64,000 nucleotides of DNA from a bacterium (GTDB lineage Bacteria > Hinthialibacterota > Hinthialibacteria > OLB16): the NCBI GenBank assembly GCA_022072055.1, contig JAJVIK010000001.1, forward strand, positions 186,001 through 250,000. Direction: 5' to 3'. Numbering within the stretch: position 1 is the first letter of the stretch; each line of letters opens with the position of its first letter. The notes below the pieces were generated by a model. The model was not told where the DNA came from. It was given only the letters and a program-made list of their open reading frames with translations, and did no database searches. This document shows positions 27,783 to 49,036 of the stretch, piece by piece. Position numbers and translations under genes: made by a program.

Positions 27783-28825
27783 CCCCACGCGAACGTTGGA
27801 AGGCGGTGTTGGACCGAAGGACCCCCGACCGGATCCCCTGTGATTTCTGGTCCACCCCCGAGGTCTTGTCCAGGCTGCTCCGCGAGCTCCGGTGCCCGAC
27901 CGAGGATGATCTCTGGCGCGCGCTGGGGATCGACCGAGCGCATGATGTCGCGCCCCGCTTTGTCGGTCCGGAGGAGCGCAAGGACAATCTCTGGATGATT
28001 GAAGTGAAGGAGCAGGTCTACGGCGATGGGTTGGGGAGCTACGCCGAGCTTTCCCATGCCCCGTTCGCGGAGTTCTCCGAACCGGAGGAACTTGTGGATT
28101 TCCCCTGGCCCGATCCCGACTGGTTCGACTTTTCGCGTGTCGCCGACGATCTGGAACGGGTCCGGGAGTGGCCGATTCGCGGCGGGGGGTTTGAGCCCTT
28201 CAATCTCTACTGCGCGATGCGCGGTCTCGAACTCGCCTTCATGGATCTGGCGACCGAATCCCCCTTCCTCGAGGCGGCGCTGGAGCGGATTTTCGATTTC
28301 CATTACGAGTTCAATCGGAGGCTTTTCGAGGCCGCGGGGTGGGGCGCGATCGACTTCACCTATGTCGCCGAGGACTTCGGCGGCCAGAACGCCCTGCTGA
28401 TGAGTCCGGACAAGATCGAACGCTTCTTTATTCCCCGCATGAAAGCGATGATCGATTTGGCGCACGCCCACGGGGTCCGCGCCTTTCACCATGATGATGG
28501 CGCGATCCGGAGGATTATTCCACGCATGATTGAGATCGGGATCGATATTCTCAACCCGATTCAGTGGCGCTGCGCGGGAATGGAGCGGGAGGGGTTGAAG
28601 CGGGACTTCGGGGAGCAGGTCGTCTTTCATGGCGGAGTGGACAACCAGCAGTCCCTTCCCTTCGGGTCTCCGAAGGATGTGAGGATGGAAGTCCTTGAGA
28701 ACATCCGGATTCTGGGGGCCGGCGGGGGCTATATCGTGGCCCCCTGCCACAACATCCAGCCGGTTTCGCCAACCGAAAACATCCTGGCCCTTTACGAGGC
28801 GGTGCGCGCGGCCTCGGGGGGATAA
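27779..28825 (+). CDS. UroD/MtaA-like (uroporphyrinogen decarboxylase family) protein, paralogue 1
   Basis: A 348-residue TIM-barrel protein of the uroporphyrinogen decarboxylase superfamily. True HemE makes coproporphyrinogen III; this branch (MtaA/CmuA-like methyltransferases and many uncharacterised paralogues) lacks the HemE N-terminus. Visible: MTPRERWKAVLDRRTPDRIP at the start, RAFHHDDG on the strand where MtaA has the zinc motif H-x-C, DILNPIQWR, and APCHNIQPVSPTENILALYEAV at the end. ATG at 27779 is preceded by GGAGG and overlaps the stop of the membrane gene. The 3' end overlaps the convergent paralogue 2 by 34 bp. Probably a methyl- or decarboxylation-related enzyme of unknown substrate; no corrinoid protein is nearby. 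Confidence 0.85.
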   Translation: MTPRERWKAVLDRRTPDRIPCDFWSTPEVLSRLLRELRCPTEDDLWRALGIDRAHDVAPRFVGPEERKDNLWMIEVKEQVYGDGLGSYAELSHAPFAEFSEPEELVDFPWPDPDWFDFSRVADDLERVREWPIRGGGFEPFNLYCAMRGLELAFMDLATESPFLEAALERIFDFHYEFNRRLFEAAGWGAIDFTYVAEDFGGQNALLMSPDKIERFFIPRMKAMIDLAHAHGVRAFHHDDGAIRRIIPRMIEIGIDILNPIQWRCAGMEREGLKRDFGEQVVFHGGVDNQQSLPFGSPKDVRMEVLENIRILGAGGGYIVAPCHNIQPVSPTENILALYEAVRAASGG

Positions 28826-29769
28826 TTCCCGAATTCCCTCCACACCTCCAGCATCGCCTCATAGCGCGAAAGGCGCATGCCGGTGTAAATGCAGTTGCTG
28901 GTGGAGAAGACATACCCGCCGCCGGGCATTCCGTTCTCCAGGGCGTAGCGAGCCGAGGCGCGCACCTCCTCCAAGGTCCCGGTGTCGAGCAATCCGCAGT
29001 TCACATTTCCGATCAGGCAGACCTCGTGTCCGTGGCGGCGCTTGACCTCGGCGATGTCCACTCCGCCTTGAGGATCGAGGGAATGGAGGGCGTGCGGCCT
29101 GGCTTGGATGAGCTGGTCGAGGATCGGCATGATGTTGCCGTCGGTGTGCTTGATGACGTAATACCCCATGTCTCGATAGCCTTGGATCAGCTTGGCGAGA
29201 AAAGGGGTGACGAACTCGCCGAACATCGTGGGGGAGAGGAACGGGCCGGTGTTGAAGCAATAATCCGCGCAGAGGGCGAAGCCGTCCAGTCCGCCGGGAC
29301 GTTTGAGGCGCGCGGCGAGTTCGAGGGCGTCGTTGACCATCTTGTCCGCTTCGGCCTTCACCTTTTCGGGCTCCTCGGCGAGGCGGATGGAGAAATCAAG
29401 CATGTGGTCGCCGTCGGGAATCGCGAAGGTGGCGTCCCCATGGACCATGAGGAAGTAATGGTCCCCCGATTTCTCCCGGACCAGATCCACCATGCGGAGA
29501 ATCTCCTCCTCGCGGTGGGGATTGGGGTGGAGAAAGATGGCGGAATGCTCGAAGCGCTCGGCGGTGGCGATGAAGACATCCGCGATGTCCTCGCGGTGAA
29601 GCCGGCGCTCCTTCTCCTCCATCTGGTCCCACTGCGCGTAATTGCGGTGGCCGGGATGGACCTTTCCGAACGCCTCCATGGTCAGGAAGAAAACCAGTTC
29701 GAGGTGAGGCGCGCGTCCCACGGGGGGCCGTCGCTCCAGGGCGGTCAGGAGTTGCTCGCGGGGTGTCAT
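28792..29769 (-). CDS. UroD/MtaA-like protein, paralogue 2
   Basis: A 325-residue UroD-superfamily protein: MTPREQLLTALERRPP start, VIKHTDGNIMPILDQL in the middle (H-T-D-G at the place of the MtaA zinc motif), DPQGGVDIAEVKRRHG, and VFSTSNCIYTGMRLSRYEAML near the C-terminus. Paralogous to 27779-28825 and 29770-30930 by the shared start and the H-x-D-G motif. It is directly downstream of paralogue 3 with no gap (stop of paralogue 3 abuts its ATG) and overlaps the end of paralogue 1 on the other strand. Role unknown; the family uses a TIM barrel for methyl transfer or decarboxylation. Confidence 0.83.
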   Translation of the reverse strand: MTPREQLLTALERRPPVGRAPHLELVFFLTMEAFGKVHPGHRNYAQWDQMEEKERRLHREDIADVFIATAERFEHSAIFLHPNPHREEEILRMVDLVREKSGDHYFLMVHGDATFAIPDGDHMLDFSIRLAEEPEKVKAEADKMVNDALELAARLKRPGGLDGFALCADYCFNTGPFLSPTMFGEFVTPFLAKLIQGYRDMGYYVIKHTDGNIMPILDQLIQARPHALHSLDPQGGVDIAEVKRRHGHEVCLIGNVNCGLLDTGTLEEVRASARYALENGMPGGGYVFSTSNCIYTGMRLSRYEAMLEVWREFGNYPPEAARTAS

Positions 29770-30930
29770 CTAATCTCCCTCCAGGGAACCGGGGTTCGAG
29801 GGAACCTCGGCGTTGTAATCATCCACAATCTTCCCCACCAGACGGACCCGCTCCAGGTCCCCCGTGGAGGAGATCTCATCCGAGATTCCGAGGATGAGAC
29901 GGGGAGCGAAGAGCTCGATCAGGCGCTCCGCGCACTCCGCGAGCTCTTCCTCCGTATAGGTCCGGTCGAAGAACACGGCTGGAATTCCATCCAGGAGAAA
30001 GACCTCATTCCCCAGCGCCTCCTTCATCTCCTCCAGGGTGACATCCCCCTGCGGCTTGGGGGTGATCGCCTCAATCCCATCCAGGCCCGAACTTCGCGCG
30101 TAAGGCAACAGCGCCTTGGTGTCGCCATCCCAGTGGGAGTAGACAAACTTGCCGGCGGAGTGCAGCCGCGCGCAGCGGTCGTGATAGGCCGGGAGCACCC
30201 ACTGTTCGTAGAGGCGCGGGGACAGGGTCGCGCAATGCAGGTTGTCTCCGAAACAGACCAGCCGGATCGGCGAGCGATTGATGACTTCGATCATCCTCAA
30301 GTGACACTCATGGAGGGCCCTGAAGTAATCCTCGACCACCTCTTCCCATTCGAGGAGGGCAAAAATGGCGCGCTCGACCCCCATGGTTTCGAGATAGAGG
30401 TGCTCCACATTCACCCTCGGCATGTACATGGAGGGCGCGCCCCGGTCTCCCCACATGGAAAGGACCTCGCGGAAGCGGTCTTCATCCCACTCCCAGGTCG
30501 TGTGGTCCTGAATCCAAGTCCCCACTCGCATGTCCTCCGGGGTTTCGATCCAGTGCTTTTCCTGAATCTCGAACCAGCTGTTCGCGGACTTGCGGAACAC
30601 CGCGGAGATTTCCCCAACCGGGGTGCGTACGCATCGCCGGATCACCCCCTCGGAGAGGGTCTGCTCGGTTCGCTCGATGCGCGGGTCCTCCACACGGCGA
30701 TAGCAGTCGTTGTAGTCATAGACACGGTTCGAACACCCGAGGTCCCGGTAGATTTCCGCTTCAGTCATCTCCCTGTAACGCTCCGGCAAGGGTTCGCCGG
30801 CGAAGCGTTTGTCGGTAAACCAGCACAGGATGCGCGGCTGCCAAAGGACCCTTCCATGCGCGTGTCCAAAGGCGACATCCAGGTTGAACTGGGCAAGATC
30901 AAGATTCCGGTGGTCGGTGGGGCGCGACAT
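29770..30930 (-). CDS. UroD/MtaA-like protein, paralogue 3
   Basis: A 386-residue member of the UroD-like superfamily and first gene of the pair with paralogue 2. It is longer at the N-terminus than the other two (WQPRILCWFTDKRFAGE instead of the MTPRE start). VYSHWDGDTKALLPYA carries the H-x-D-G motif, AITPKPQGDVTLEEMKEALG follows, and ILGISDEISSTGDLERVRLVG ends the barrel. Promoter-like TATAAT lies 31-36 bases before the ATG. Substrate unknown; presence of three diverged paralogues suggests specialised methyl transfer or demethylation of several related compounds rather than heme synthesis. Confidence 0.8.
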   Translation of the reverse strand: MSRPTDHRNLDLAQFNLDVAFGHAHGRVLWQPRILCWFTDKRFAGEPLPERYREMTEAEIYRDLGCSNRVYDYNDCYRRVEDPRIERTEQTLSEGVIRRCVRTPVGEISAVFRKSANSWFEIQEKHWIETPEDMRVGTWIQDHTTWEWDEDRFREVLSMWGDRGAPSMYMPRVNVEHLYLETMGVERAIFALLEWEEVVEDYFRALHECHLRMIEVINRSPIRLVCFGDNLHCATLSPRLYEQWVLPAYHDRCARLHSAGKFVYSHWDGDTKALLPYARSSGLDGIEAITPKPQGDVTLEEMKEALGNEVFLLDGIPAVFFDRTYTEEELAECAERLIELFAPRLILGISDEISSTGDLERVRLVGKIVDDYNAEVPSNPGSLEGD

Positions 30931-31018: not shown

Positions 31019-31927
31019 CTAGAGTCTCCGAAACCACTTGGAGAAATCCGCCGGAAGGGTGTGGACCTCATAAGGGCGTTTCTCGGGTTCGTTCCAGGTC
31101 CAGGCTTCGGGGGTTGGAGACTCCGGGGCAAGCAGTCCGACCAAGTGGGAGCCTGTTCCGGTGAGCGTGGCCCCGAGGCACCCTTTTCGGAGCAGGAGGT
31201 CTCGGAGCTCCGCGAGCCTCGGCCTGCGGCTGAAAACGACCTCCTGGAAGGCGTTGAACATCAGGGACCCGAGAAGGGCGAGATCCCCTTTCTTCCAGAC
31301 CTGGATGAACGCCTCGGCGGGGGGATGAGGGCGCTCGGAGGAAGGGGGCATGCGGCCATAAATCGCCCCGGTCTCATGGGAACTCCCCGGATCGAGCACG
31401 ACCATGCGAAGGGGATGGACATCCGCGATGCGATCCACAATTTCGCCGCGACCGCGCACGCGCGCCGGTCCGCCGATCAAGCTGTAGGGGACATCCGATC
31501 CGACCGCGAGGGCGCGCGCCATCAGAGTGTTCCCGCTGATGCTGAACACTCGTGTCAGGTAGCGGATCAACGTGGCGGCGTCCGAGGTCCCCCCTCCCAA
31601 TCCCGCCCCAGGGGGAATGTGCTTCGCCAACCGCATGGAAACCCCCCAGCGGGTGCCTTTTAGAATCTCATTGGCCGCCTTGATGAGGTGATTGGTTTCA
31701 TCGAGCGGGATGCCGGGGGTGTCGCATTCGAGCGTGTGCCTGCCCGTGTCGTTAAGAACAAGGTCGATCTCATCAAAGAGGTCCACCGACACATTGACCG
31801 CGTCCAGGTTGTGGTACCCATCGGGGCGTCGGTCGAGTACGTCGATAAACAAGTTGACCTTGGCCGGAGCGAGAAGCCGCACCGGTTGTTCGATGGGATA
31901 AAGGGGGAGGACTTCAGCGGGGGTCAC
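31019..31927 (-). CDS. ispE: 4-diphosphocytidyl-2-C-methyl-D-erythritol kinase
   Basis: A 302-residue GHMP kinase of the MEP isoprenoid pathway; it phosphorylates CDP-methylerythritol at the 2-hydroxyl using ATP. Seen: APAKVNLFIDVLDRRPDGYHN (20-40) with Lys23 and Asn25, the ATP-binding glycine loop PPGAGLGGGTSDAA (105-118), and GSDVPYSLIGGPARVRGRGE (143-162) with catalytic Asp145. Length and motifs are normal. Usual partners (ispD, ispF, prs, spoVG) are absent. It is 24 bp downstream of a sigma-54 response regulator on the same strand and is probably the last gene of that transcription unit. The C-terminal WTWNEPEKRPYE tail is unusual but short. Confidence 0.95.
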   Translation of the reverse strand: MTPAEVLPLYPIEQPVRLLAPAKVNLFIDVLDRRPDGYHNLDAVNVSVDLFDEIDLVLNDTGRHTLECDTPGIPLDETNHLIKAANEILKGTRWGVSMRLAKHIPPGAGLGGGTSDAATLIRYLTRVFSISGNTLMARALAVGSDVPYSLIGGPARVRGRGEIVDRIADVHPLRMVVLDPGSSHETGAIYGRMPPSSERPHPPAEAFIQVWKKGDLALLGSLMFNAFQEVVFSRRPRLAELRDLLLRKGCLGATLTGTGSHLVGLLAPESPTPEAWTWNEPEKRPYEVHTLPADFSKWFRRL

Positions 31928-31951: not shown

Positions 31952-33361
31952 CTAATCGATTTCACCGGCCTCGCTGAAATCTTTCGGATTCAGACCCAAC
32001 CGGTCGAGTTTCTCCTGGAGATTCTTGCGGTGCATGCCGAGCGCCTCGGCGGTGCGGGTCACATTGCCCCGGTGACGCTCCAGGGTTTTTCCGAAGAAGC
32101 GCTTTTCGAAGGCATCCAGAACCCGCTGCTTGGCTTCCTTGTAGGTGATCGATTCATCCTCCACCCAGGCCTCCTCGGGGGGACGCGGCTGGACGATCTC
32201 CGGCGGCGGAGCCAAGCTGCCACCAATCTGTCCGAGCAGCTCGGGGGAATCAAGCACCACGGCCCGCTCCACCACGTTGCGTAGTTCCCGGACATTTCCG
32301 GGCCACTCGTATTTCATGAGCCGCTCCTGAACCGAGGTGGGGACTCGAAAGCTCTCAGCGTCCTTGCCGAGCTGCTTGAGGAAATGGGCCACAAGAACGG
32401 GGATGTCCGTGGGATGGTTTCGCAGGGGCGGCACCTCGATGGGAACCACATTGAGCCGGAAGTAGAGGTCCTCGCGAAACCTTCCCGCCCTGACTTCCTC
32501 CGCGAGGTTGCGATTCGTCGCGGCCACCACGCGGACATCCACGCGTTTCGATCCGCGCCCCCCCACCGGCTCGATGGTTTGCTCCTGAAGCACGCGGAGG
32601 ATTTTGCCTTGAAGCCCCAGGTTCATGTCCCCGATTTCGTCCAGGAAGATGGTCCCCCGGTCGGCGAGTTCGAAGCTTCCCACCCGATTCTGGACCGCCC
32701 CGGTGAAAGCGCCCTTGACATGCCCGAACAGCGTGCTTTCCAAGAGCTCCTCCGGGATCGCGATGCAGTTGATCGGCACAAAGGCGTTTTGCGCCCGCCC
32801 GGAGAGATTATGGATGGCGCGCGCGACGAGCTCCTTGCCCACTCCGCTCTCGCCGAGGATAAGGGTTGTGGCCTCGCTCCGCGCCACGCGCTCAATCAGG
32901 GTGAAGAGGGTCTTCATCGGCGCGGATTCGCCCACAAGCCCAATCTGACCCGGACCGAGCGAGAGCTCCTCGCGCAGGAACAGGTTCTCCAAGACCAACC
33001 GCTTCCGGTCGATCGCGCGGCGGACCGCCTTGAGCATGTCTTCCTGGTTGTAGGGCTTCTCGATGAAATCAACCGCCCCTTCCTGCATGGCGCGCACCGC
33101 CACCTGCACGGTCCCGTGGGCGGTGAGCAGAATCACCGGAAGGGACGGATTGACCCGTTGAACCTCCGCGAGCAGCTCCTCTCCGGAGAGGTTCGGCATC
33201 CGCAGGTCCGAAATCACACAGTCATGGGAGGAGGATTGGAGCAGCCCCAGGGCCACCGCTCCATCCTCGGCGGTCTCAATGTCGTACCCGGCGGCCTCCA
33301 ACTGCAGGCCGAGAGCCTTTCTCAATCGGGGTTCATCATCGACGATCAGAACTTTGGGCAT
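31952..33361 (-). CDS. Sigma-54-dependent response regulator (NtrC family), with canonical GAFTGA
   Basis: A 469-residue NtrC-type regulator. REC domain 1-120 with phospho-acceptor Asp52 (VISDLRMP) and Asp8-Asp9; AAA+ domain with Walker A GESGVGKE; the sigma-54 contact loop GHVKGAFTGA; Walker B-type FLDEIGDM; the arginine-finger region REDLYFRLNVVPI; and a Fis-type helix-turn-helix at the C-terminus (GNVTRTAEALGMHRKNLQEKLDRL). It activates sigma-54 promoters when phosphorylated. No histidine kinase is in the window. It follows the second regulator by 21 bp and precedes ispE by 24 bp, so all three probably share a transcript. Confidence 0.95.
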   Translation of the reverse strand: MPKVLIVDDEPRLRKALGLQLEAAGYDIETAEDGAVALGLLQSSSHDCVISDLRMPNLSGEELLAEVQRVNPSLPVILLTAHGTVQVAVRAMQEGAVDFIEKPYNQEDMLKAVRRAIDRKRLVLENLFLREELSLGPGQIGLVGESAPMKTLFTLIERVARSEATTLILGESGVGKELVARAIHNLSGRAQNAFVPINCIAIPEELLESTLFGHVKGAFTGAVQNRVGSFELADRGTIFLDEIGDMNLGLQGKILRVLQEQTIEPVGGRGSKRVDVRVVAATNRNLAEEVRAGRFREDLYFRLNVVPIEVPPLRNHPTDIPVLVAHFLKQLGKDAESFRVPTSVQERLMKYEWPGNVRELRNVVERAVVLDSPELLGQIGGSLAPPPEIVQPRPPEEAWVEDESITYKEAKQRVLDAFEKRFFGKTLERHRGNVTRTAEALGMHRKNLQEKLDRLGLNPKDFSEAGEID

Positions 33362-33382
33362 GGTCGGCGGGAAGATTCAGGC

Positions 33383-34765
33383 TCAGCCGGCCTGATCCGA
33401 GACCCGAATCTTGAACTCGCGGAGTTTCTCCTGCAAGTGGCGGCGCGAGAGGCCCGCCACGATGGAGGATCGGGTCACATTGTAGTCATTGGAGGCCAGC
33501 AGGTTCTGGAAGTAATTCTTCTCGAACGCCGCCTTGGCCTGTTTGTACGGGAGTTGCTCGATCTCATGCAGACCCGTGCGCCAATCGGTTTCTTGCACAA
33601 TCTCGCCGGGCAGGTCGCCTTTGCTGATGGTTTGACCGTCCTTCATGATCACCAGACGTTCGATCAGGTTTTGAAGCTCTCGGACATTCCCCGGCCAGCG
33701 ATAGCTCCGCAGCGCCTCCATGGCATCCGGCGTGAAACCGGCCAGGGAACGCCCCATCTTCCGCGTGCATAACGCGAGGAAATGGTCGATCAGGATCGGG
33801 ATGTCCTCGCGCCGCTCACGAAGCGGCGGAACCGCGATGGGAAAGGTGGCCAGACGGTAGAACAGGTCCTCGCGGAATCTCCCGGTTTCCTGTTCGACCT
33901 TGAGATCGCGATTGGTCGCGGCGATGATCCGGATATCGGTGTTTCGGAAGGTCACTCCGCCGACCCGGCGGACCTCGCGGGTCTCGATCACCCGAAGGAG
34001 CTTCACCTGAAGCTCGAGCGGGAGATCCCCGATCTCATCCAGGAAGAGGGTGCTCTGGTTGGCCCGCTCCAGCAGCCCCGGTTTGGCGGTGTGGGCGCTG
34101 GTGAAGGCCCCCTTTTCGTGCCCGAAGAGTTCGCTTTCGATCAGGTCGCGGGGAAAAGCCCCGCAATTGATCGCCACCATGGCGCGGTCGGAGCGCTTGG
34201 AGCTTTGATGGATCGCGCGCGCCACCAGCTCCTTTCCGGTTCCGCTTTCGCCGGTAATCAGCACCGTGGCGTCCGTGGCGGCCACATGCGCGATGAGCTT
34301 GCCGATGGATTGCATCGCGGGGCTGCTTCCGACCAGTTCGCCCGGTCCGACCTGATTGGCGAGCTGCTCCGATAGGACCCGTTTCTCCTTGCGCAGGCGA
34401 AAGAGCTCCACCGCGTTGGCGATCACCCGCACGACTTCATCGTTGTCGAAGGGCTTGATGAAGTAGTCGAAGGCTCCGGCGCGGATCACCTCCTGGGCGA
34501 GCTGCACATTCCCGTAGGCCGACATCACAATCATGATCTGCTCGGGGTCGCGTCGGCGGACCTCATGAAGGAACGCCAGCCCATCCATCTCCGGCATGCG
34601 CACATCGGTCACCACACAGTCGTAGCTGCGCTGGTTCAGCTTCTCGAGGGCATCCAGGCCGTTATGGGAGATCTCCACGCTGTAGCCCTCATCCCGCAGG
34701 ATGCGCGACAGTATCCGGCAGAGGTTCTCCTCATCATCCACGAGCAAGATGCTGGCCGCGCTCAT
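33383..34765 (-). CDS. Sigma-54-type response regulator with variant GAFTSA loop
   Basis: A 460-residue paralogue of the next gene. REC domain with Asp54 (VVTDVRMP), AAA+ domain with Walker A GESGTGKE, FLDEIGDLP, REDLFYRLATFPI, and a Fis-like helix-turn-helix at the end (YNVTRSSIVAGLSRRHLQEKLREF). The sigma-54 contact loop reads GHEKGAFTSA instead of GAFTGA: the second Gly is Ser. In this family GAFTGA contacts sigma-54 and changes in it often impair activation, although natural variants do occur. Its start overlaps the preceding small membrane-protein gene by four bases (ATGA), tying it to the GT-C/DUF2298/NHL gene upstream. Target promoters unknown. Confidence 0.93.
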   Translation of the reverse strand: MSAASILLVDDEENLCRILSRILRDEGYSVEISHNGLDALEKLNQRSYDCVVTDVRMPEMDGLAFLHEVRRRDPEQIMIVMSAYGNVQLAQEVIRAGAFDYFIKPFDNDEVVRVIANAVELFRLRKEKRVLSEQLANQVGPGELVGSSPAMQSIGKLIAHVAATDATVLITGESGTGKELVARAIHQSSKRSDRAMVAINCGAFPRDLIESELFGHEKGAFTSAHTAKPGLLERANQSTLFLDEIGDLPLELQVKLLRVIETREVRRVGGVTFRNTDIRIIAATNRDLKVEQETGRFREDLFYRLATFPIAVPPLRERREDIPILIDHFLALCTRKMGRSLAGFTPDAMEALRSYRWPGNVRELQNLIERLVIMKDGQTISKGDLPGEIVQETDWRTGLHEIEQLPYKQAKAAFEKNYFQNLLASNDYNVTRSSIVAGLSRRHLQEKLREFKIRVSDQAG

Positions 34766-35062: not shown

Positions 35063-38000
35063 CTAGTTCATCGGAACCAGGACCACCTTGTGACCCTGGC
35101 GCAAGGTCGCGAGGACCCTTGAGTCCGGAGCCACCGCGATCCCAATCGGGAAACCGTTCACGGGAATCTTCTTGAGAGTCTCGCCCCGCTCGGAGAGAAC
35201 CAGCACCTGGTTGTGTTCGGGGTCTGTCACCAGGAGACGGTTCCCCTTTTCGTCCCAGCAGAGGTGCATTTCGTTGGTGGTTCCGCCGGTGGATTCGGTC
35301 GCTAGGGGCCAGGCGCGGAGAAAACGTCCGCGCCCATCGAAAAAGACCACGCGGGTCCTGCGAGCGTCCGTGACCGCGAGACCCAGCGGAGTGATCTCGA
35401 CATCCACCGGCTCCGCAAGACGGTGCTCCTCGGGTCCGTTCGCTCCCCACTCGCCGACCTTCTTTCCGCTCGGGTCAAAGATCATCAGGTTCTTGGCCCC
35501 TGTATTGGCGAGGTAAATCAACTTGCCGGACAGGGTCGGAGTGGCCGGGAGGATCACCTTCCCTTCCCCGGTCACCTCCCCAATCGGCGCCTGTCCCACG
35601 GCGATGCCGCGCGGACCGAACGCTGACATGGAGATCACCTTGGCGATCTCCCCCGTGGGGCTGAAGATCTGGACACGCGAGTTCCAGGTGTCGAGGACAT
35701 AGAGGGTCCCATTCTCATCGATCGTGAGGTCATTCGGCTCCTTGAAGAACCCCTGCTCCTCGCCTTGCTCTCCCACCCACCACTGGAAGTTTCCGCGTTC
35801 ATCAAAGGACTGAATCCGGTGGTTCATGGTGTCGGCCACGAAAGCCTGCCCCGACTTCGAGAACACAATCGCGCGCGGCTCCTTGTATTGGCCGGGAGCA
35901 AAACCCTCCGAGCCGCGCAGAAGCGGCTGGCCGGAATCTTTCACAAACAGCGAAGGTTGTTCAACCGCTTTTTCCTTGAAGTCGGCCTCCAAACGGTAAT
36001 CCGGGTCCACTGCGTAGAGGGTCACCCCGGGCGGTTTGATCTTGCTGCGGAACACCGGACGGAAAAGGTCGGACCATTGGTCGAACTTCTCCAGTTCACG
36101 GCCCTCATCCAGGCCGTAGAGAGTGCGCTCCACTTGCCCCAAGACAACATAACGGACATTGTGGGCGCGAAGGACATCGCGAACCTTCTCGCGCTGGAAC
36201 GAGGTGAACACGGTGCGAGCATCCTCAAGCCTCGGTTCGGGCTTGTTATCTCGTTCGCGGCTGTGGTGGACCCACCCGATCAGGGTCGGAAGCCCGGTGT
36301 TGCTGGAATACCGGGCGCGGTCATCGCGATAGGAGGAGTCGATCTCGGACCCCTCCAGGATGGTCGGAACGCCATCCGTCTTGGCGCGGAGCCAATCAAT
36401 CGCGGCGGCGGCGTCCGGCTCCTTGACTCGAAGGTAATTCAAACCATCCGCGGTCCGGACCCCCTTCACCTGTCGGGAGCGAAAGTCCACCCCATTCCCT
36501 TGGGAGTAAATGTACGGCGCCACCATTGGAAAAAGGGCCGAGAACGCCAACGCTCCCATAAGGAGGGGATATCCCAAGGTGTACCGGCATAGCCGCGCCA
36601 GGGCGCGCGCGGGCGCGGGGGCCAAGTCCACCGGCTTTTCGAGCCATAGGGCCATCAACCAGCCGCACCCGATCGAAAGGCAAATCCAGGCCTGCAAGTG
36701 AAACTTGAAGATGGTGTTCCAGCGGTGGCCCGGCGGTCCCCAACCCTCGACCACATAGACCACTTCGATCCCGGCGATGATCGCCAGCCCCAGACCGAGA
36801 ATCCCGGCGCCCAAGCGATCCTTGAGCGTCACTCCTCGCCGGAGCATGAACGGAACAAACAGGAGGAACAAAGCCAGGACAAAGCCACAGACCACATAGG
36901 CGATGTCGGAGTCGAGATACCGCCAGTAGGCCAGCTCGTTGGTCTTGGCTGGAATCGAATCGAGGCCGGCGGGATCAAAGGTGCCCCGAGCCTGGCCCCG
37001 AAGGAGCCACGCCATGGCGAGTGACAGCAGGATCGAACCCGCCGCCCAGCATCCCATCTTGATCCCCGCGCCTTGGGTGGAGCGGATCCATCGCCCGTAC
37101 AGGGTTACGAGGCCGACTCCCACGATCACGGTGAGGAACCCGAAGATCTGGAAATACTCGTAGGGGGTGACCCACCCGCACCCGGCTTCCGCCATCCACC
37201 CGGTTCCCTTGACCCGCTGGGGGATCTCGAAGCTGAGGTGGAAGGGATAGAAGAAGGCGTAACTCAACCCCCATACCACGATCAAAGGGAGGAGAACCTC
37301 CGCGAGGAGGAAGAACTTCCAAGCCGTGAGCTTTTCGAGCTTCCTCCCCCACAGATTGAGGTCGTGGATCGCGCGTCCCAGAGTCTCCCGCGTGGCCGCG
37401 AAATAGTCCCGGCAATGGAAGGCAAAGAGGACCAGCACCCCGCCCGCGAAGAAGAGCAGCAACCCCGGGAAATCCCAACGGTTGGTGATCGAGACCATTC
37501 CGAGCAGAAGCCCGATCACGGCGATCTGCGCGCGGGAGACCCAGGGGCCTCCACCGCAATCGAAACATTCCAGGCGAATGTCCGCGGACTTGAGTCGCCA
37601 CACCTCGGCCCGGCGCAGGATGTAGGCTGTCATGAGCGACAGGGCGAGCACTCCGATAGGCATGATCAGGAAGTGAGCGTGCAGGTCGGCGAAGGTCGCG
37701 GTCCATGCCGGAAACTCGCAGGCCACCGAGGAGCGAACAATCCGACTGAGCTTCCACAGGTAATCATCGAACCCGAGCAGACGGGACAGATCCGCCTGGC
37801 GCGCCTGCTCCACGAGCTCCGGATCATACGCCGCGCGGAACGCCAGCCAGACATGGCCGAATACATCGCCGGTGAGGGAAAACGCCGCACGCAGTTGCTC
37901 CCAAACATCGGCGAAGTATCCCGATAGCCCATCGTGCGGGACATAATTCTCGCGGAAGAGTTTGGGTTCGATTGGGCCTCCGGGCGCGCGAAGATTGGCG

Positions 38001-41000
38001 GCGATCTGAATGAAGCTTTTCCCCGTTCCGGCCATGGTGGCCAGGAACGCTCCGAGCAACCCCCCGAGCTTGCTGTTGGTCAGGTTGAGGACAAGGCCGA
38101 ACACGAGCACAAACACAAGCGCCGGCCAACTTCCCGCCGCGAGGTTGTAAGCGTATTCCGGCGGAACCCCCACACTCTTCCCGAAAAGGCCGACAACCGC
38201 ATGCCCATAGTAGTAATAATTGATGTGCCGCCCGGCGAACCAGGGGTCCACGGCGGGAAAGGTTGGGTTCTTGTAGGCGGCGTTGACAAACGAGATGTCC
38301 ATCGACTTCTCGCCCCAATGGATGTCCGGATTCGAGGCCCGAATCCCGAAGAAGTAATTGAACACCAGAAGAAAGAGGACCTCGGAGAACACCGCGAGCT
38401 TCCAATGGGCGCGCAGAAACTCGGCCATCGCCGGCATCGACTTTCGCAGGCAAAGGATGGAAGCGGCGGTCCATGCCACCAGGACAAGCGCGCTCGCCCA
38501 CGGGGCATTGGTCCACCATCCCACGCTCGCTCCGAACCAGAGGAGGTAGGTGAAAAGGAGGATGGCCACCATCTTGGAGGCGAACAGGCCGCCATCGCGC
38601 GCCCCCCGGAAGAGGGTGAAGGTGATCGGCCAAAAAAGCCATCCGAGCGCGATCAGTCCAAAGACCCAGAGATGGACCGCGTAAGTCGCCCGAGGCGCGA
38701 GGATCGAACGGTTTTCATCATGGGTCAGAATCTGCTCGCGGGAAAGCTCGCGGATCCATTCGGGCGGATTCGACATCCGCTCGATGATCTCCTGCGCGGG
38801 GATCCGCTCCACGCGCTCGAAGATGTGCATGGTCGGGTGGTCATAAAGGGACAGGGATTCATCGGCGAGCTCATATCGAATCGGAATCCCAAGCACATAA
38901 ACCGGCTCCGAAAAAGTCTTGACCAAGCGGTATCCCAGGTGTCCCGCGAAAAGGGACTTCACGAACAGACAGCGGTTGGGGGAATCCTCCGGGGATTGAA
39001 GAAAGGCGCCATAATTGCGCTTGGAGGAAAAGCAGTAGTAATCCGCCGAGGCCATCTGCCGCGCGATGCCCGCGAGGTGTTGCGGGTCATCCGAGTGCAC
39101 GGGATTCACCGAGAGCTGCTGGTAGCGGGCGGCGACTCCACCCCAGGGGACCGAATCGTCCCAACTTTCGGTGATGATCCGCTTGCCCGCGGGGACTTCC
39201 TTGTCGAACCAGTCGGCGGCCACCATCCAGGGGTGGTCCTTGCGGTAGATTTCCACGAAGGCGAAGGAGAACAGGGCGCTCCAAACAACGGTCGCGAGCG
39301 CGAGACCGGCAATCGCGCCATGCCACTTCAACCCGCGCCGCCCTCCGTCTTCCCACTGCTTGCGGAGGAGGGTGTAGGCCCACACCCCCAGCGCCGCCCC
39401 CCATAGACAATAGAAGGGGGCCTGCGCGATGAGGTAGCGTGGAAACTTGGTGTGGAAGAACATCGTGGTGGCAAGGTTGGGGACCACCCAAGCCCACACC
39501 ACCCATTCCTTCCAGCAGGGACGATGGATCGGTCGGAGGACTCCGAAAAACACCCCGAACAGGCACAACAAGCCGAGCGGAGGCCCCATCCCCCACAAGA
39601 TCAGGTTTTTCCATTGATACACCACGGGTGTGGTGTGGTCGTACTGACGGGTCCAAACCAAGCCGCCATCCACCGCCATGCGTCGCTGTTCATCCACATC
39701 GCGCCAGTGGACCGCCCCTCCCACTGTGAGCCGGTTCTCGAAGGGGCGATTGCCATCCGGGTGCATGTGGGCCCCGAAATGGAAGCCGAGCGGCCCGGTG
39801 AACCGATCCAGCCAATCGGTAAACCGGAGCAGGGCGGAGCGAGTCGCTCCGGGTGTTTCGCCGCGCGGGGGGCCGAGGTCGAGGTGGACGAAGGAGAGAG
39901 TCGGGGCCTCCCAGTCCGCCAGTGTTTGCTCGGTTGCGCGCGCGCCGCGGCGTTCGGACGGGAAGTCCAGAAATCCGAACGGCTGTCCCAGGAAGGCGCT
40001 GAGCCAAATCAGGGCAAAGGAGGCAATCCCAAGGACTTTCAGGTGGACCCCAAAGGCGCAAGTCTTGAGGCTGAAGAATGGGACATGCGGGCGCTGTTTC
40101 CAGAAGGCCATTCCGAGCGCGCCGGCCCATGGGATGAACAGCAGGATCGCGCCGAACTTGGTGGCGAGTCCCAGCCCAAACCAGACCGAGGCGGCGGCCA
40201 TCGCCCGCCAGCGCTGTCCCCAGGTTTGGGCATCGAGGAAGACCAGCAAGGAATAGACCGAGGCGGTGGTGAAAAACGCGAGGATCACATCGAAGGTGAA
40301 GTAATGGGAAAGTTGAATGTGCAGGACCGTGAAGGTGAGGAAGATGGCCGCGAGCAGGCCGACTCTGCGACTATAGACCCGGGCTCCGATGCGATAGGCA
40401 TAGAGGATGGTCAGGGTTCCCGCAATGGCCGATAGCGGGCGCCCCAACATCGCCCAGCTACCGTAATGCCAAGTCCGGCGTCCGGAGTCCACTTGTCCCG
40501 CGAGGAACAGTTTCCCGCACAGATGGAACAGGATGGCGTACAACAGGAGGGCCCCGCCCAGTTCCAGGAGAAACCGGCCCAGTCGGGGCTTCCGTTCCGG
40601 GTCGGAGAGCGCGAGCGCCAATTTGACCGCCCAACGGATCGCAAGCAGGGTGATGAACAGTCCGAGGAGATAGAACCTCACCGCCCAAGGCGAGAAACTG
40701 TTTCCCAGCCAGGACAGGAAGACCAGCGTGTAATAGGGGAAGGTCCCGTAGTTGAACGAGTTGATGTTGAGCTTGCTGGACTGGGTGAGGAAACGGAGTT
40801 TGAAAGCGCGCCATTGGTGATCCAGGAAGGACTCGCCTTCCAGACGTTCAACGGGGTCCCAGCCGAGCCCGCCGGCCTTGCCGTAGACACTCCGTTCGTC
40901 GGGGTGGGTGTACCCCGGGTTGGCATCCCAAGGCGCGCCCGCCTCACGCTCGTAGCCCCAGTCATGTCCCGTAAGCCGCAGGGAACCGCCGACAAGCAGG

Positions 41001-41044
41001 CATAGCAGGAGACCGGAAAGACAGACCAGGCGGCTCTCGTTCAT
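35063..41044 (-). CDS. 1993-residue fusion: GT39-like + DUF2298 + NHL propeller membrane protein
   Basis: One uninterrupted reading frame. Part 1, about 1-830: polytopic GT-C-like domain; GYTHPDERSVYGKAG in the first outer loop holds the acidic pair where GT39 enzymes have their catalytic base, and YGTFPYYTLVF follows. Part 2, about 850-1690: a DUF2298/Chlor_Arch_YYY-type domain, with NPDIHWGEKSMDISFVNA, DPWFAGRHINYYYYGH and many helices. Part 3, about 1705-1993: NHL beta-propeller repeats, for example EPRAIVFSKSGQAFVADTMNHRIQSF then NDLTIDENGTLYVLDTWNSRVQIF, predicted outside the membrane. DUF2298 proteins and GT39 proteins often occur as neighbours; the three-part fusion suggests a glycan transfer machine with an outside sensing or binding domain. 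Followed by a small coiled-coil gene, two sigma-54 regulators and ispE. A TTGACA (41085-41090) lies upstream with no good -10. Confidence 0.88.
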   Translation of the reverse strand: MNESRLVCLSGLLLCLLVGGSLRLTGHDWGYEREAGAPWDANPGYTHPDERSVYGKAGGLGWDPVERLEGESFLDHQWRAFKLRFLTQSSKLNINSFNYGTFPYYTLVFLSWLGNSFSPWAVRFYLLGLFITLLAIRWAVKLALALSDPERKPRLGRFLLELGGALLLYAILFHLCGKLFLAGQVDSGRRTWHYGSWAMLGRPLSAIAGTLTILYAYRIGARVYSRRVGLLAAIFLTFTVLHIQLSHYFTFDVILAFFTTASVYSLLVFLDAQTWGQRWRAMAAASVWFGLGLATKFGAILLFIPWAGALGMAFWKQRPHVPFFSLKTCAFGVHLKVLGIASFALIWLSAFLGQPFGFLDFPSERRGARATEQTLADWEAPTLSFVHLDLGPPRGETPGATRSALLRFTDWLDRFTGPLGFHFGAHMHPDGNRPFENRLTVGGAVHWRDVDEQRRMAVDGGLVWTRQYDHTTPVVYQWKNLILWGMGPPLGLLCLFGVFFGVLRPIHRPCWKEWVVWAWVVPNLATTMFFHTKFPRYLIAQAPFYCLWGAALGVWAYTLLRKQWEDGGRRGLKWHGAIAGLALATVVWSALFSFAFVEIYRKDHPWMVAADWFDKEVPAGKRIITESWDDSVPWGGVAARYQQLSVNPVHSDDPQHLAGIARQMASADYYCFSSKRNYGAFLQSPEDSPNRCLFVKSLFAGHLGYRLVKTFSEPVYVLGIPIRYELADESLSLYDHPTMHIFERVERIPAQEIIERMSNPPEWIRELSREQILTHDENRSILAPRATYAVHLWVFGLIALGWLFWPITFTLFRGARDGGLFASKMVAILLFTYLLWFGASVGWWTNAPWASALVLVAWTAASILCLRKSMPAMAEFLRAHWKLAVFSEVLFLLVFNYFFGIRASNPDIHWGEKSMDISFVNAAYKNPTFPAVDPWFAGRHINYYYYGHAVVGLFGKSVGVPPEYAYNLAAGSWPALVFVLVFGLVLNLTNSKLGGLLGAFLATMAGTGKSFIQIAANLRAPGGPIEPKLFRENYVPHDGLSGYFADVWEQLRAAFSLTGDVFGHVWLAFRAAYDPELVEQARQADLSRLLGFDDYLWKLSRIVRSSVACEFPAWTATFADLHAHFLIMPIGVLALSLMTAYILRRAEVWRLKSADIRLECFDCGGGPWVSRAQIAVIGLLLGMVSITNRWDFPGLLLFFAGGVLVLFAFHCRDYFAATRETLGRAIHDLNLWGRKLEKLTAWKFFLLAEVLLPLIVVWGLSYAFFYPFHLSFEIPQRVKGTGWMAEAGCGWVTPYEYFQIFGFLTVIVGVGLVTLYGRWIRSTQGAGIKMGCWAAGSILLSLAMAWLLRGQARGTFDPAGLDSIPAKTNELAYWRYLDSDIAYVVCGFVLALFLLFVPFMLRRGVTLKDRLGAGILGLGLAIIAGIEVVYVVEGWGPPGHRWNTIFKFHLQAWICLSIGCGWLMALWLEKPVDLAPAPARALARLCRYTLGYPLLMGALAFSALFPMVAPYIYSQGNGVDFRSRQVKGVRTADGLNYLRVKEPDAAAAIDWLRAKTDGVPTILEGSEIDSSYRDDRARYSSNTGLPTLIGWVHHSRERDNKPEPRLEDARTVFTSFQREKVRDVLRAHNVRYVVLGQVERTLYGLDEGRELEKFDQWSDLFRPVFRSKIKPPGVTLYAVDPDYRLEADFKEKAVEQPSLFVKDSGQPLLRGSEGFAPGQYKEPRAIVFSKSGQAFVADTMNHRIQSFDERGNFQWWVGEQGEEQGFFKEPNDLTIDENGTLYVLDTWNSRVQIFSPTGEIAKVISMSAFGPRGIAVGQAPIGEVTGEGKVILPATPTLSGKLIYLANTGAKNLMIFDPSGKKVGEWGANGPEEHRLAEPVDVEITPLGLAVTDARRTRVVFFDGRGRFLRAWPLATESTGGTTNEMHLCWDEKGNRLLVTDPEHNQVLVLSERGETLKKIPVNGFPIGIAVAPDSRVLATLRQGHKVVLVPMN

Positions 41045-43887: not shown

Positions 43888-45912
43888 TCAGGGCATCGGT
43901 TTTTCCGGAACTCGGAAACGTTCCGCGCGTTCCGTCAATCTTGCCGCGTCCTCGTGTCTTCCCAACAATCGGTTGAGCCTCGCCGCTTCCTCCAAGTACC
44001 CCGCCCAACAGGGGTTGTACAACAGTTTCCCTTCGACCGCTCCGAGAGTGACCCTTGGATCGCGCGCGAGACGCCCATACTCCTCCCAGCCATCGAAGAG
44101 GGCGATTCCGTGACGGTAATTCCCGGCCATGCGGAGCTGAACGAGAGCGGTCTCGAGATCGTTTTGGGCCAGGGCCACTGAGGCGCGATACAGGAGGGCA
44201 TCGTGGGTTTCGAGCAGTGGGTAGCGAATCGAATCCAAAGCCTCGGCGGCAAGTGAAAGTGACGCGGAGGCGCGCGCCGGCTCCGCCGCCGAGAGGCCGC
44301 GCCGGTATTCCTCGAAGCCGAACTTCAGTCGTTGCTGATCGCGAAGCCCCACCGACCCCGCGCTCACCAGTCCGGCGGCGAGGATCCCTGTCAGAAGGCG
44401 CTGACCGAAGCGCATGGGAGCGGCGGGCGCGCTCCCCCTCGCGCGCGTGGCGCTGAGGATCGCGAGACAGCCGATCGCCAGGAAGCTCGGCTGCGGCTGA
44501 CGCAAGGGGAAATCCACCAGCGAGTGAAACAAGATCAGCAAGAGGCAGGTCCACGCGGCCCAGACCATGGGACTGTGCGCCGCCAGGGGCGGCGAGTGAC
44601 CGTGCGGGCGGCGAATCCCCAGCCAAATTGCGCTCGCAACCAACCACGCGAAAGTCAGCATCCCGAGCGCGCCGGTCTCGGCGAGAATCTGGAGCGGATC
44701 GCTGTGCGCCTGGGGAACCAGACCGACTGAGGGACGATCATGCGGATGGTCCCGCTGGCGATAAACCTCCCCCTGGTAAAGGTTGTGGAGATTATAGTAC
44801 CGGCCATATCCGATCCCCCGCAGCGGATGATCCTTCACCATCAGGCCGGTGGTCCGCCAGATGAACCGCCGCGCGCCGAAGCCACCCTTCCAGCGCGGCG
44901 AATCGAGAGCTTCCCGAACCAGCCCCTCCGGATGATTGGGGATTCCCCAAGGCAGAAGCAGGGTCCCCCAGACGAAAAGCAGCGCCCCCAGCGCGGCAAG
45001 CGTGATTCCCCGTTGCACCTTGGAGCGGACGGCAAACGCGACCAGCGCGAGAAGAGCCGACGCTCCCACAGTGAAAATCAAGATCCGAGAGGCGGAGGCG
45101 AGCGACTCGCTCAGGAGCGCGCGGAGCAACACGAAAAGCCCCGCCGAGATCGAGTATGCCGCCGCGGCTCGCCTCCAAGGGCGAAGCTCTCCTCCCGTCG
45201 GAAAGAACGCGGCCGCCAGGGGAAGCATGACAAAAAGCCCGAGCCATGCCCCCACGGTGAACACGGTGGTGAGGGCATACAGGAAGATCATCCCGACTCC
45301 GGCCCATGCGATCCGCGCGAAACGAGAGGCCCCGCTTGCCCACCAACGCGCGAGAACGACCGGGAGCAGATAGACCAGATATCCCCCAACCTCGTTTGGG
45401 TTTCCGAGGGTGGAGGAAAGGTGGAAGCGCCAATCCGAAACCGGTTCAGCGCCCCACCGGAAAATTCCCCAGTCCTGAAGAATCGCGAGCGCTCCCACCA
45501 GCGCGCCACCCACGGCAAAGGCTCCAAGCAGATGTCCGGCTTGGCGGACGGACTCCTCCCTTGTCCTTGACCCGAAGGAAGCAATCAGCAGGCGGAAGAC
45601 CAGATAGCCAAGCGGAAGCCGCAACCACAAGGCAAGCGTGACATCCCAATCGGGCGCCCGCCATCTCCAGGCAAAGAGGGTGGCCGCGAGGCAGGCGAGG
45701 ATGGGAGTATCGAGCGGTATCCGGGGCTGCCGGATGGAAACCCCATTCCAGCAGGCGATGGCCAAGAGCAGCCCGGTCCACGCCATGAGGAAGAACCACT
45801 TGGGTTCATGGAAGCTGTCGTAGGCGGGGGCCCAGACGATGAGCGGGAAAACCACCGCGAAGAGCAGCCAAAGCGGCCTGCCATCCACTCGGGTCGTAAA
45901 TGGGCGAGTCAT
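43888..45912 (-). CDS. O-antigen ligase-like (Wzy_C) membrane protein
   Basis: A 674-residue polytopic protein from ATG 45912, which overlaps the stop of the DUF2723 gene (ATGA); an in-frame upstream ATG at 46035 lies inside that gene and is less likely. About twelve helices are followed by a soluble C-terminal segment of about 120 residues with TPR-like helices. The outer-loop motif PQAHSDPLQILAETGALGML (around 410) matches the Wzy_C signature of O-antigen ligases and polymerases, which join or polymerise lipid-linked glycans outside the cytoplasm. Coupled to the DUF2723 GT-C gene, this suggests a two-gene glycan unit. Exact glycan unknown. Confidence 0.82.
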   Translation of the reverse strand: MTRPFTTRVDGRPLWLLFAVVFPLIVWAPAYDSFHEPKWFFLMAWTGLLLAIACWNGVSIRQPRIPLDTPILACLAATLFAWRWRAPDWDVTLALWLRLPLGYLVFRLLIASFGSRTREESVRQAGHLLGAFAVGGALVGALAILQDWGIFRWGAEPVSDWRFHLSSTLGNPNEVGGYLVYLLPVVLARWWASGASRFARIAWAGVGMIFLYALTTVFTVGAWLGLFVMLPLAAAFFPTGGELRPWRRAAAAYSISAGLFVLLRALLSESLASASRILIFTVGASALLALVAFAVRSKVQRGITLAALGALLFVWGTLLLPWGIPNHPEGLVREALDSPRWKGGFGARRFIWRTTGLMVKDHPLRGIGYGRYYNLHNLYQGEVYRQRDHPHDRPSVGLVPQAHSDPLQILAETGALGMLTFAWLVASAIWLGIRRPHGHSPPLAAHSPMVWAAWTCLLLILFHSLVDFPLRQPQPSFLAIGCLAILSATRARGSAPAAPMRFGQRLLTGILAAGLVSAGSVGLRDQQRLKFGFEEYRRGLSAAEPARASASLSLAAEALDSIRYPLLETHDALLYRASVALAQNDLETALVQLRMAGNYRHGIALFDGWEEYGRLARDPRVTLGAVEGKLLYNPCWAGYLEEAARLNRLLGRHEDAARLTERAERFRVPEKPMP

Positions 45913-47753
45913 GGTCCATTTTCCATGGCCTCGTTCTGAAGCTCCAGACGGTAGAGCTTCCCGGAGGGAACCGGCATTCGATCGAGGTCCGAATGCCCTT
46001 CGGTCAGAATCGGCACGCGCAAGCATTCCCGCCACTCGACCGGTCGCGGAAGGTATCGCTCCAGCTCCTGGAACAATCCGGTCAGATAGAGCGGCCGCTC
46101 CTCGAAAGATGGAAACAGCCGCTCCACCATGAGGAGCGCCAGAGTGTGCCGGTTCTCCAGGAAGATTCGGCCCCCCACCTTGTAGATCCGGGTGAGCGGG
46201 GCCGTGGGGCGCGGGGTGGCCGCCTCAAGAAACTCGGTAAGAATCTTTTCCTCCAAGGGAACTCGATCGGTCCCCTTCGCGAGCATCTGAAAGAAATCGG
46301 AATGGATCCCTTCCCGAAGCAGGGTCTTCTCATACCAGGGGGAAGTGAAGAACCCCTCGGAGAGCAGGGCGACGCGCGCGCCGCGTCGGGCCACCTCCTT
46401 GTGATAAAGGAGCGGGAAATAGGTGTAGTCCACCGGTTCTTGGGCGCGCGCGGGGACCGCGATCAAGACCGCTCCGGGCGGGGGTTGATCGAGGGTCCTT
46501 CGGGCGAGACGTTCGGGCAGCTCAAGCAGATAAGGGGAGGGACCCTCGATCGCGCGGAGCCGCCAGGATACGGAAAGGAGCGCCAGCGCCACCAGTGTCC
46601 ACGGGAGCATCGGTGTCTTGGAGCGCGCCCATTCCAGAGCCGCTCCCCATCCGACCCCAGCGGCGAGAGCCCAAACCAACAACGGTAGAAGGTGAAAATC
46701 GGCCTGGTCGGCGACATGGTATTGGGCGATGAAAACGGTCGGGAGAGCCCAGGCGGCGAGTCCGGACCCAAAGGCTCGTCTGGCGACCGTCGCCGAGTGT
46801 CCCACTCCGAGAAATGCCATCCCAAGGGAGAGTCCGAGGGCGCTCCAGAGAATCCCGGGAACCCCTGTGAGGCTTTCCAGGGTGAGGCGGATCGGGCTTG
46901 GGGAAAACCCCTGCTCGTGCGCCATCCACTCCTTGACCCGAAGGATTTCCTGGTCGGTCCGAAACTGGTGGGCGGAGAAGACTTTCCAGAGGTTTCCGAA
47001 GGTCGAAGGGTCCTCCCAGTTGAGCGGAATGTCGGAGCGCGCGCGGAGCCAAAGGACCAGATACGGTCCGAAAACGGCAAGGCCAAAGAGGGCCGCGGCG
47101 GCGGGGAAGAGGCGCCGCGGCGGGTTCCAGGTCCTGAGTGATCCCGCGAGCCAAAGGGCCAAGCCGGGAAGGAGGAAGACCAGCAGGCGGTGATGCCCCA
47201 GCGCAAGTCCGGCCAGGAGGGCCACCATCAGGAGCCCTCGTTCCGAAGGCTGTGAGACAAACCGCGCTCCAAGGAAGAGACAGCTTGCCGCAAGCAGGAG
47301 AGAAAAGGCATACACTTCCGTGGTGACCGCCTGACGGATCACCAAGGGGGAAAGGGCGAACGCAAGGAGTCCCAACCGCCATCCGATACCCTTCCAGTGG
47401 TTTTCTTTCTCGATTGGAATCATCCGGAACAAGAGTCCGAACGCGAGGAGGGCGCAAGCCGCCGAAAACAGGTTCCCCTTGAAGGCGACGGAGCCTAGCG
47501 GCAGGCAACCGAAAGTCTTGAGGGCCAGGAGATAGAGCGGATACCCGGTGGGATGGGCGACTCCATCGCGCCAGGCGGCGGTGAGCAGTTCGGGGCCGTC
47601 GCCCCAGCTGATGAATGGGCGAATATGCCCGGAGAAAACAGTCGCGAGAAGGGCGAGCAGAAGGGAGTCCAGCAGGGCTTGAGCACGTTCGGTAATTCCA
47701 CAGTCTCCGCTTCGTCTCAGCTGGCTTGATCGGCGGGGTCGTCCTTCAACCAC
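45909..47753 (-). CDS. DUF2723/TMEM260-like GT-C membrane protein
   Basis: A 614-residue polytopic membrane protein. The N-terminal motif SWGDGPELLTAAWRDGVAHPTGYPLYLLAL (about 49-78) is the DUF2723 signature: an acidic outer loop (Asp52, Glu55) followed by H-P-T-G-Y-P-L, as in the O-mannosyltransferase TMEM260 (GT117). The C-terminal region is soluble and may face outside. The start is uncertain: GTG 47753 (used) or TTG 47771 are in frame; an ATG at 47969 is unlikely, because the terminator of the gene at 47960 falls inside that longer frame. The stop is fused to the O-antigen ligase start. Probable role: transferring a sugar from a polyprenyl phosphate. Confidence 0.78.
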   Translation of the reverse strand: MVEGRPRRSSQLRRSGDCGITERAQALLDSLLLALLATVFSGHIRPFISWGDGPELLTAAWRDGVAHPTGYPLYLLALKTFGCLPLGSVAFKGNLFSAACALLAFGLLFRMIPIEKENHWKGIGWRLGLLAFALSPLVIRQAVTTEVYAFSLLLAASCLFLGARFVSQPSERGLLMVALLAGLALGHHRLLVFLLPGLALWLAGSLRTWNPPRRLFPAAAALFGLAVFGPYLVLWLRARSDIPLNWEDPSTFGNLWKVFSAHQFRTDQEILRVKEWMAHEQGFSPSPIRLTLESLTGVPGILWSALGLSLGMAFLGVGHSATVARRAFGSGLAAWALPTVFIAQYHVADQADFHLLPLLVWALAAGVGWGAALEWARSKTPMLPWTLVALALLSVSWRLRAIEGPSPYLLELPERLARRTLDQPPPGAVLIAVPARAQEPVDYTYFPLLYHKEVARRGARVALLSEGFFTSPWYEKTLLREGIHSDFFQMLAKGTDRVPLEEKILTEFLEAATPRPTAPLTRIYKVGGRIFLENRHTLALLMVERLFPSFEERPLYLTGLFQELERYLPRPVEWRECLRVPILTEGHSDLDRMPVPSGKLYRLELQNEAMENGP

Positions 47754-47830
47754 TTTGCATTCTCTGGGCAATATCTCATTTACTTCCTGAAATGATATGG
47801 TCGAGTCTCCCAAAAGGGAATGCTTGAGGA

Positions 47831-47855
47831 AAAAAATGGGGGGCTGTGGCCCCCC
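47831..47855 (-). terminator. Intrinsic terminator of the tandem-repeat exoprotein gene
   Basis: GGGGGGC-TGTG-GCCCCCC forms a 7-bp GC stem (47838-47855). Read on the minus strand it is followed by ATTTTTT (47837-47831), giving a classical Rho-independent terminator about 105 bp past the stop at 47960. Confidence 0.8.
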
Positions 47856-47959
47856 GCTCAGACTACTCGTTGTTGAACTCCGTTTCGATTCAGTCCGACC
47901 TTCGATGATGCAAGGCAGCCCCCAGTGAGGAAATCCACCCAATCTGAGAACCTGGCGCG

Positions 47960-49036
47960 TCAGTCCCAAAATGCCCTGACATAGAGGTCGTAAATCCTGA
48001 TGTAACGACCCCCCGCCGTTCCATCAGGAGTGAGGAGGACCTCCATATCATTGAACTGGGTAGAAGTCCATTTCCCGGACGATTTGGTGAATGTAACGGA
48101 ATACCAATTGGGTATCGTGGAAAGCCCTACGGTCTGGGGGGTTACGGAATCGCTTGGAATACTCAGCCCAATTTCCAGTGGTTCAACAACCGAGTTGGAT
48201 TCCATTCCATAGAACACGACCTCAATCCGCTTGACATCAGACCGACATGCGTTCGATTCGCTGAGAGGGTCCACTTCGTAGGCTTGCGTGACAAGTTCAT
48301 CGTCCGCACCATTGGCCTCAATATAGGTTGCTGTGCTGGGGGTGGAACCCTCGTGTCGGAATTTGCCTTTGTTGATGTTGCTCGCACTGTTTACAGACCA
48401 ATCTCCTGTCCCATCATCCCCAATTACGGTCGGTCTCCTGTACTCAGGGAAGATTGGGCGAACATAAAGAGCCTCAATACTGATTGCCTCAGAAGTCAAT
48501 AGGCTGGGTCCAGATACCAGCGACACTGCAAGGTAATTCAAATCATCCCGAGTCCAGTATCCCGACCCCTTATTGAAAATGGCTGTGTCCCAACCTTCAG
48601 TGGTGCTCATATCGACCTCTTGCTCGCTCTGCCAGCTCCCTACATAAAGGTTCACCCAAGGATCGTCAACGTCATTTGAGCTGAGGCTTCCGCGGATCAG
48701 AACCTCGATGGAATTGGACTCAGCATGTTCCGCAGGATATCCGGGATCACCAATAAGGTAGCTCTGGTACACCTCCTCATCCGCCGGTCCAGTCGCTTCA
48801 GCATGGCCATCATCAGCGTCATTGCTCGGATAGGTCACGTCGTCGTCAACCAGGGTGTATTCACAGGTAGTCCAATCACAGCCACCGAGGCATCCGCATT
48901 CAGCCACAGGACGGAGCTCTTCATCACACATGGCACCCGCCCTTACAGTTCCTAGCGCCAATACCACACATACGACCAGAACGGCCACACCCGGCGGAAA
49001 CCAACCTGAACTGCGCATCCTTGTGCTTCTCGACAT
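47960..49036 (-). CDS. Secreted tandem-repeat protein of unknown function
   Basis: A 358-residue protein with a clear signal peptide (GVAVLVVCVVLALGTVRAGA), then a Cys-rich start (CDEELRPVAECGCLGGCDWTTC) and two related repeats of about 140 residues. Repeat 1 runs from YTLVDDD to EALYVRPIF; repeat 2 from PTVIGDDG to YDLYVRAFW. Both contain a GSGYW/SSGKW-type Trp motif, an acidic patch and a closing Y-V-R-x-F/I strand, so each is probably a beta-sandwich. No family was recognised. AAAGGAG lies nine bases before the ATG. Composition is visibly less GC-rich than the flanks, possibly acquired by transfer. The gene ends with an intrinsic terminator. Probably a surface or secreted binding protein. 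Confidence 0.75.
   Translation of the reverse strand: MSRSTRMRSSGWFPPGVAVLVVCVVLALGTVRAGAMCDEELRPVAECGCLGGCDWTTCEYTLVDDDVTYPSNDADDGHAEATGPADEEVYQSYLIGDPGYPAEHAESNSIEVLIRGSLSSNDVDDPWVNLYVGSWQSEQEVDMSTTEGWDTAIFNKGSGYWTRDDLNYLAVSLVSGPSLLTSEAISIEALYVRPIFPEYRRPTVIGDDGTGDWSVNSASNINKGKFRHEGSTPSTATYIEANGADDELVTQAYEVDPLSESNACRSDVKRIEVVFYGMESNSVVEPLEIGLSIPSDSVTPQTVGLSTIPNWYSVTFTKSSGKWTSTQFNDMEVLLTPDGTAGGRYIRIYDLYVRAFWD

Follow-up and report, generated by a model that had tools for sequence, protein, structure and literature searches.

We propose that a 1993-residue protein encoded in a bacterial genome is a membrane glycosylation enzyme in which two diverged GT-C units and an external NHL propeller form one chain, a reading to which we assign a probability of about 0.6. 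The gene occupies positions 35063..41044 on the minus strand of the window, the 64,000-nucleotide stretch of DNA that was analysed, and consists of a single open frame of 1993 codons from ATG to TAG with no internal stop. Searches with Pfam and NCBIfam profiles place three modules along the chain, in the order (N- to C-terminal) of a PMT/GT39-like GT-C glycosyltransferase domain, a DUF2298 domain, and an NHL propeller. DUF2298 defines a membrane protein family that is widespread in bacteria and archaea and to which, to our knowledge, no biochemistry has been assigned. In the papers searched, the term was found only as a mention of a neighboring gene and in a database paper, and a literature search for Chlor_Arch_YYY, TIGR03662, or TIGR03663 returned nothing.

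The fusion is not a product of sequencing or assembly error, an explanation whose probability we consider vanishingly small. Independent assemblies from many genomes and several phyla contain frames with this module order and size, and codon-position GC is even over all ten 200-codon blocks of the frame, so that no junction of different genes is visible. Nothing in the source genome (G000) points to an artefact; the one interruption observed is in the assembly of its relative Candidatus Hinthialibacteria OLB16, whose gene is 56% identical over the C-terminal part. A preliminary description of this DNA had reported, without naming a strand, one uninterrupted frame with three modules, and this is confirmed by the open frame, by orthologous frames, and by profile searches of each segment, which returned PMT/PMT_2, DUF2298/TIGR03662, and NHL. 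Two outcomes at odds with that description, an artefactual joining of separate genes and the lack of a DUF2298 profile match, were checked for and neither held.

The OLB16 copy (L015 1-300) is broken near a contig end into ORFs of 95 and 763 aa with one stop reported, probably through a frameshift or an assembly error. Two tandem NtrC-type response regulators (31952..34765, minus strand) lie downstream of the fusion gene, followed by an IspE-like GHMP kinase (31019-31927), in the same order as in OLB16. Each regulator is 76-78% identical to its OLB16 counterpart, with cross-matches of about 43%, and both are thus better conserved than the neighboring fusion protein. Upstream and on the same strand, an O-antigen-ligase-like (Wzy_C) gene and a TMEM260-like GT-C gene (43888..47969, minus) constitute a second membrane glycosylation gene set. 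The surroundings also include two neighboring URO-D-like genes with modest scores (28792-30930, minus) and an ORF at 47960-49036 (minus) with no Pfam match and a GC3 of 0.54, which is unusually low for a window of 62% GC.

The evidence is strong that residues 1-780 (38705..41044; this and all other parts of the gene lie on the minus strand) are the GT-C transferase half of the protein. Pfam PMT matches residues 193-352 (3e-12) and PMT_2 residues 203-317 (9e-12), both above their gathering scores. An AlphaFold model of the domain (pTM 0.81), which includes a C-terminal soluble alpha/beta domain at residues of about 603-780, was matched by Foldseek to AglB/STT3, ALG9/12, Pmt4, and ArnT, with AglB nearest (E 2e-9); TM-scores were only about 0.3-0.5 and sequence identity about 9-20%. 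The predicted acidic pair of GT-C enzymes lies in an HPDE motif in the first extracytoplasmic loop (residues 47-50, 40895..40906), whose H, D, and E are invariant in our alignment. H-x-D-E was found in 35 of 35 GT frames, although that of L127 lies outside the match to the GT domain and is not relied on. Judging from the fold and the invariant motif, the N-terminal unit would be a transferase of the GT39-like kind, taking its sugar from polyprenyl phosphate at the extracytoplasmic face and relying on HPDE as the acidic center.

The DUF2298/Chlor_Arch_YYY domain spans residues 790-1665 (36050..38677), as delimited by Pfam, TIGR03662, the structural model, and topology. Pfam DUF2298 matches residues 830-1454 (1.3e-74; 252.4 bits against a cut-off of 27.8), and NCBIfam TIGR03662 matches residues 790-1656 with 338.8 bits against a curated cut-off of 300.25. 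The domain is predicted to contain 16 transmembrane (TM) helices followed by a soluble alpha/beta domain at about 1535-1665. We assigned this topology ourselves, positioning one helix by eye; under it, K and R are denser inside (0.21) than outside (0.09; p 0.001). Three motifs of the family are present in predicted extracytoplasmic segments: the YYY-G signature as INYYYYG (residues 941-947, 38204..38224), preceded in the same loop by near-invariant E912 and D933; DLHAH (residues 1120-1124, 37673..37687); and R-x-NT-x-FK as RWNTIFK (residues 1441-1447, 36704..36724), with R, N, F, and K invariant. Under the predicted topology, all invariant polar residues of the domain map to outer loops or lie close to the outer ends of helices.

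At the level of sequence profiles, DUF2298 appears to be a remote relative of the GT domain. A comparison of 45 stand-alone DUF2298 sequences with the GT domain by hhalign gave a probability of 94% (72.6 bits, E 1e-7), far above the controls, in which reversed profiles scored 22-23 bits and 20 block shuffles scored at most 36; the match is confident only over 127 columns that cover the last TM helix and the soluble domain and do not include the catalytic core. This final comparison used larger alignments and was limited to stand-alone rows because fused GT sequence could contaminate a DUF2298 profile. Earlier comparisons with 40 and 17 rows had given 48-89% by segment, with parts not clearly above controls. 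Comparison of the DUF2298 and Agl23 profiles gave no signal above the null, and a sequence search of DUF2298 against solved structures gave no GT-C match. The model of the DUF2298 and NHL parts is confident (pLDDT 86.9), and in a search of PDB and BFVD with its fold the 50 matches listed were all of propeller type. The apparent remote kinship makes it doubtful that DUF2298 is a wholly different type of module; it is likely a second, diverged GT-C-type unit. Together with the predicted outward-facing position of the conserved E, D, H, R, and K residues, the kinship makes handling of a lipid-linked sugar on the outer face the most likely role of this domain, either as a second transferase or as a part that binds and passes on the substrate.

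Our survey found that fusion of DUF2298 to a GT domain is widespread. Seven other genomes of the source's class (L053-L059) encode the same architecture in about 1920-1990 aa, and GT-DUF2298-NHL proteins of 1776-1980 aa occur in another phylum (G090, G232, G352, G353, and G354). DUF2298 is present in 42 of 61 genomes in the phylum of G073, most carriers combining a copy of about 740-870 aa with another inside a frame of about 1400-1750 aa; two copies per genome are found in most cases. An HMM built from 17 of the N-terminal GT domains detected the same domain in all 33 of the long DUF2298 frames fetched from several phyla, those of the source's class included, and frames outside the 17 matched too. 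Most of these fusions lack NHL, and one protein of 2766 aa (L051) has the architecture GT-DUF2298-DUF2298-TPR. The NHL tail is thus the variable part, and only the NHL-tailed form looks lineage-limited. In a tree of 40 DUF2298 domains, stand-alone and GT-fused copies separate with few label changes, with the deep branches partly open; of the two DUF2298 lineages, one is normally fused to GT. The preliminary description was a real and useful observation, but it treated as rare a fusion that is widespread: its statement that the modules are usually separate is wrong for GT and DUF2298.

Natural unfused counterparts also exist. In G005, genes for GT (812 aa) and DUF2298-NHL (1176 aa) overlap by a few bases and adjoin a stand-alone DUF2298 gene. 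In G021, a GT gene (524 aa) and a DUF2298 gene are adjacent and divergent, with a second DUF2298 gene and Agl23 within about 10 kb. In the tree, the DUF2298 of both split arrangements falls within the fused clade. Such strict pairing with GT in one lineage, along with the absence of the HxDE motif from DUF2298, is what would be expected if DUF2298 were a catalytically dead, GT-C-like scaffold or an allosteric partner of the GT domain. We regard this as improbable, given that its charged residues are invariant or nearly so across phyla, even in stand-alone copies.

The two DUF2298 types are linked to a third membrane protein, Agl23 (TIGR03663). Of 290 genomes sampled, 30 carry DUF2298, and 27 of these also have Agl23 (Fisher 1e-27); outside the source's class the figure is 14 of 16 (Fisher 3e-16). 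These p values overstate independence because the sampled genomes are related. Control searches detected both DUF2298 and TIGR03663 in the archaeon Haloferax volcanii. Stand-alone DUF2298 and Agl23 are often clustered; L141 and L145 have the gene order GT-DUF2298 / DUF2298 / Agl23-like / Agl23, with similar arrangements in L130, L045, and L047. GT2 genes lie near some of these clusters, and on plasmid pNP95 of Pseudobutyrivibrio xylanivorans DUF2298 lies among O-antigen-type genes in a polysaccharide cluster. The partner genes of the source genome, including two Agl23-NHL frames (1157 and 1176 aa), sit on other contigs rather than beside the fusion. The supposed link of DUF2298 to GT39-like genes is borne out by the fusions and adjacent split genes, and the suggestion that GT and DUF2298 act as one machine is supported by the conserved fusion, its split versions, and the cassette with Agl23. 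These same arrangements place DUF2298 in glycosylation with lipid-linked sugars at the outer face. The fusion protein would be part of a polyprenyl-phosphate-sugar glycosylation cassette, working in a set with stand-alone DUF2298 and with Agl23, which could plausibly supply lipid-linked sugars at the outer face.

Purified Agl23 of Haloarcula hispanica translocates lipid-linked oligosaccharide in vitro, an activity demonstrated for an archaeal Agl23 only (PMC11182771). One alternative is that DUF2298 is itself a translocase of lipid-linked sugars, or an accessory to one, and that the fusion ties together two steps, the flipping of a polyprenyl-phosphate sugar and the transfer of that sugar by the GT domain. 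The tight co-occurrence and clustering with Agl23, the usual presence of two DUF2298 copies, and the many predicted TM helices would fit this model, but it appears unlikely: the conserved residues are all predicted on the outer side, an enzyme-like pattern unlike a two-sided transport path, and the domain appears to be remote kin of a transferase. More speculatively, and with still less confidence, DUF2298 and Agl23 could both be GT-C-derived translocators of polyprenyl-linked sugars, the fusion a translocase-transferase that links flipping with glycosyl transfer in a single chain, and NHL a docking platform outside.

For the NHL propeller of the proposed glycosylation enzyme (residues of about 1705-1993, 35066..35932; Pfam 1e-13, with matches starting at about residue 1711), Foldseek matches the NHL domains of TRIM2/3/71 with a TMt of about 0.8. 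NHL is also found fused to Agl23 (L045, L047), to DUF2298 (source genome, L063), or to GT-DUF2298, and the clusters of G218 and G077 encode two stand-alone NHL proteins, each with an N-terminal hydrophobic anchor. Based on topology and these anchored proteins, the propeller is most likely extracytoplasmic, where it would most likely bind partners or the acceptor. The preliminary description had NHL sensing or holding the acceptor; of that idea, the evidence bears on the extracytoplasmic position. Paired anchored NHL proteins are seen in DUF2298/Agl23 clusters at 13505-15620 of L046 and 12554-14598 of L064, as if one were for Agl23 and one for GT-DUF2298.

These results make the function of DUF2298 testable by naming residues to mutate, and connect the family to an Agl23 with measured activity and to a possible role in building sugar coats. 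They also bear on how lipid-linked sugars cross membranes.

The protein can be compared to three known systems. With GT39/GT83 and related GT-C transferases (PMT, ArnT, AglB/STT3) it shares the fold, the H-x-D-E of the first outer loop, and the C-terminal soluble domain; unlike in those enzymes, the GT domain is fused to DUF2298, and sequence identity to them is low. Agl23, too, is GT39-like (hhalign 98.6% to the GT domain described here; ArnT is its only PDB match), occurs in the same gene clusters as DUF2298 and, like it, can carry an NHL tail. The fusion protein is not an Agl23, and TIGR03663 was not among its NCBIfam matches. With TIGR03662/PF10060 it shares a full-length match above cut-off, the YYY-G signature, and the occurrence of both stand-alone and large-protein copies. 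The TIGR03662 entry describes a large class with an unnamed N-terminal region, two copies of the domain, and TPRs. The large form here is instead GT-DUF2298-NHL, whereas the 2766-aa protein fits that class and has the GT domain described here as its N-terminal region.
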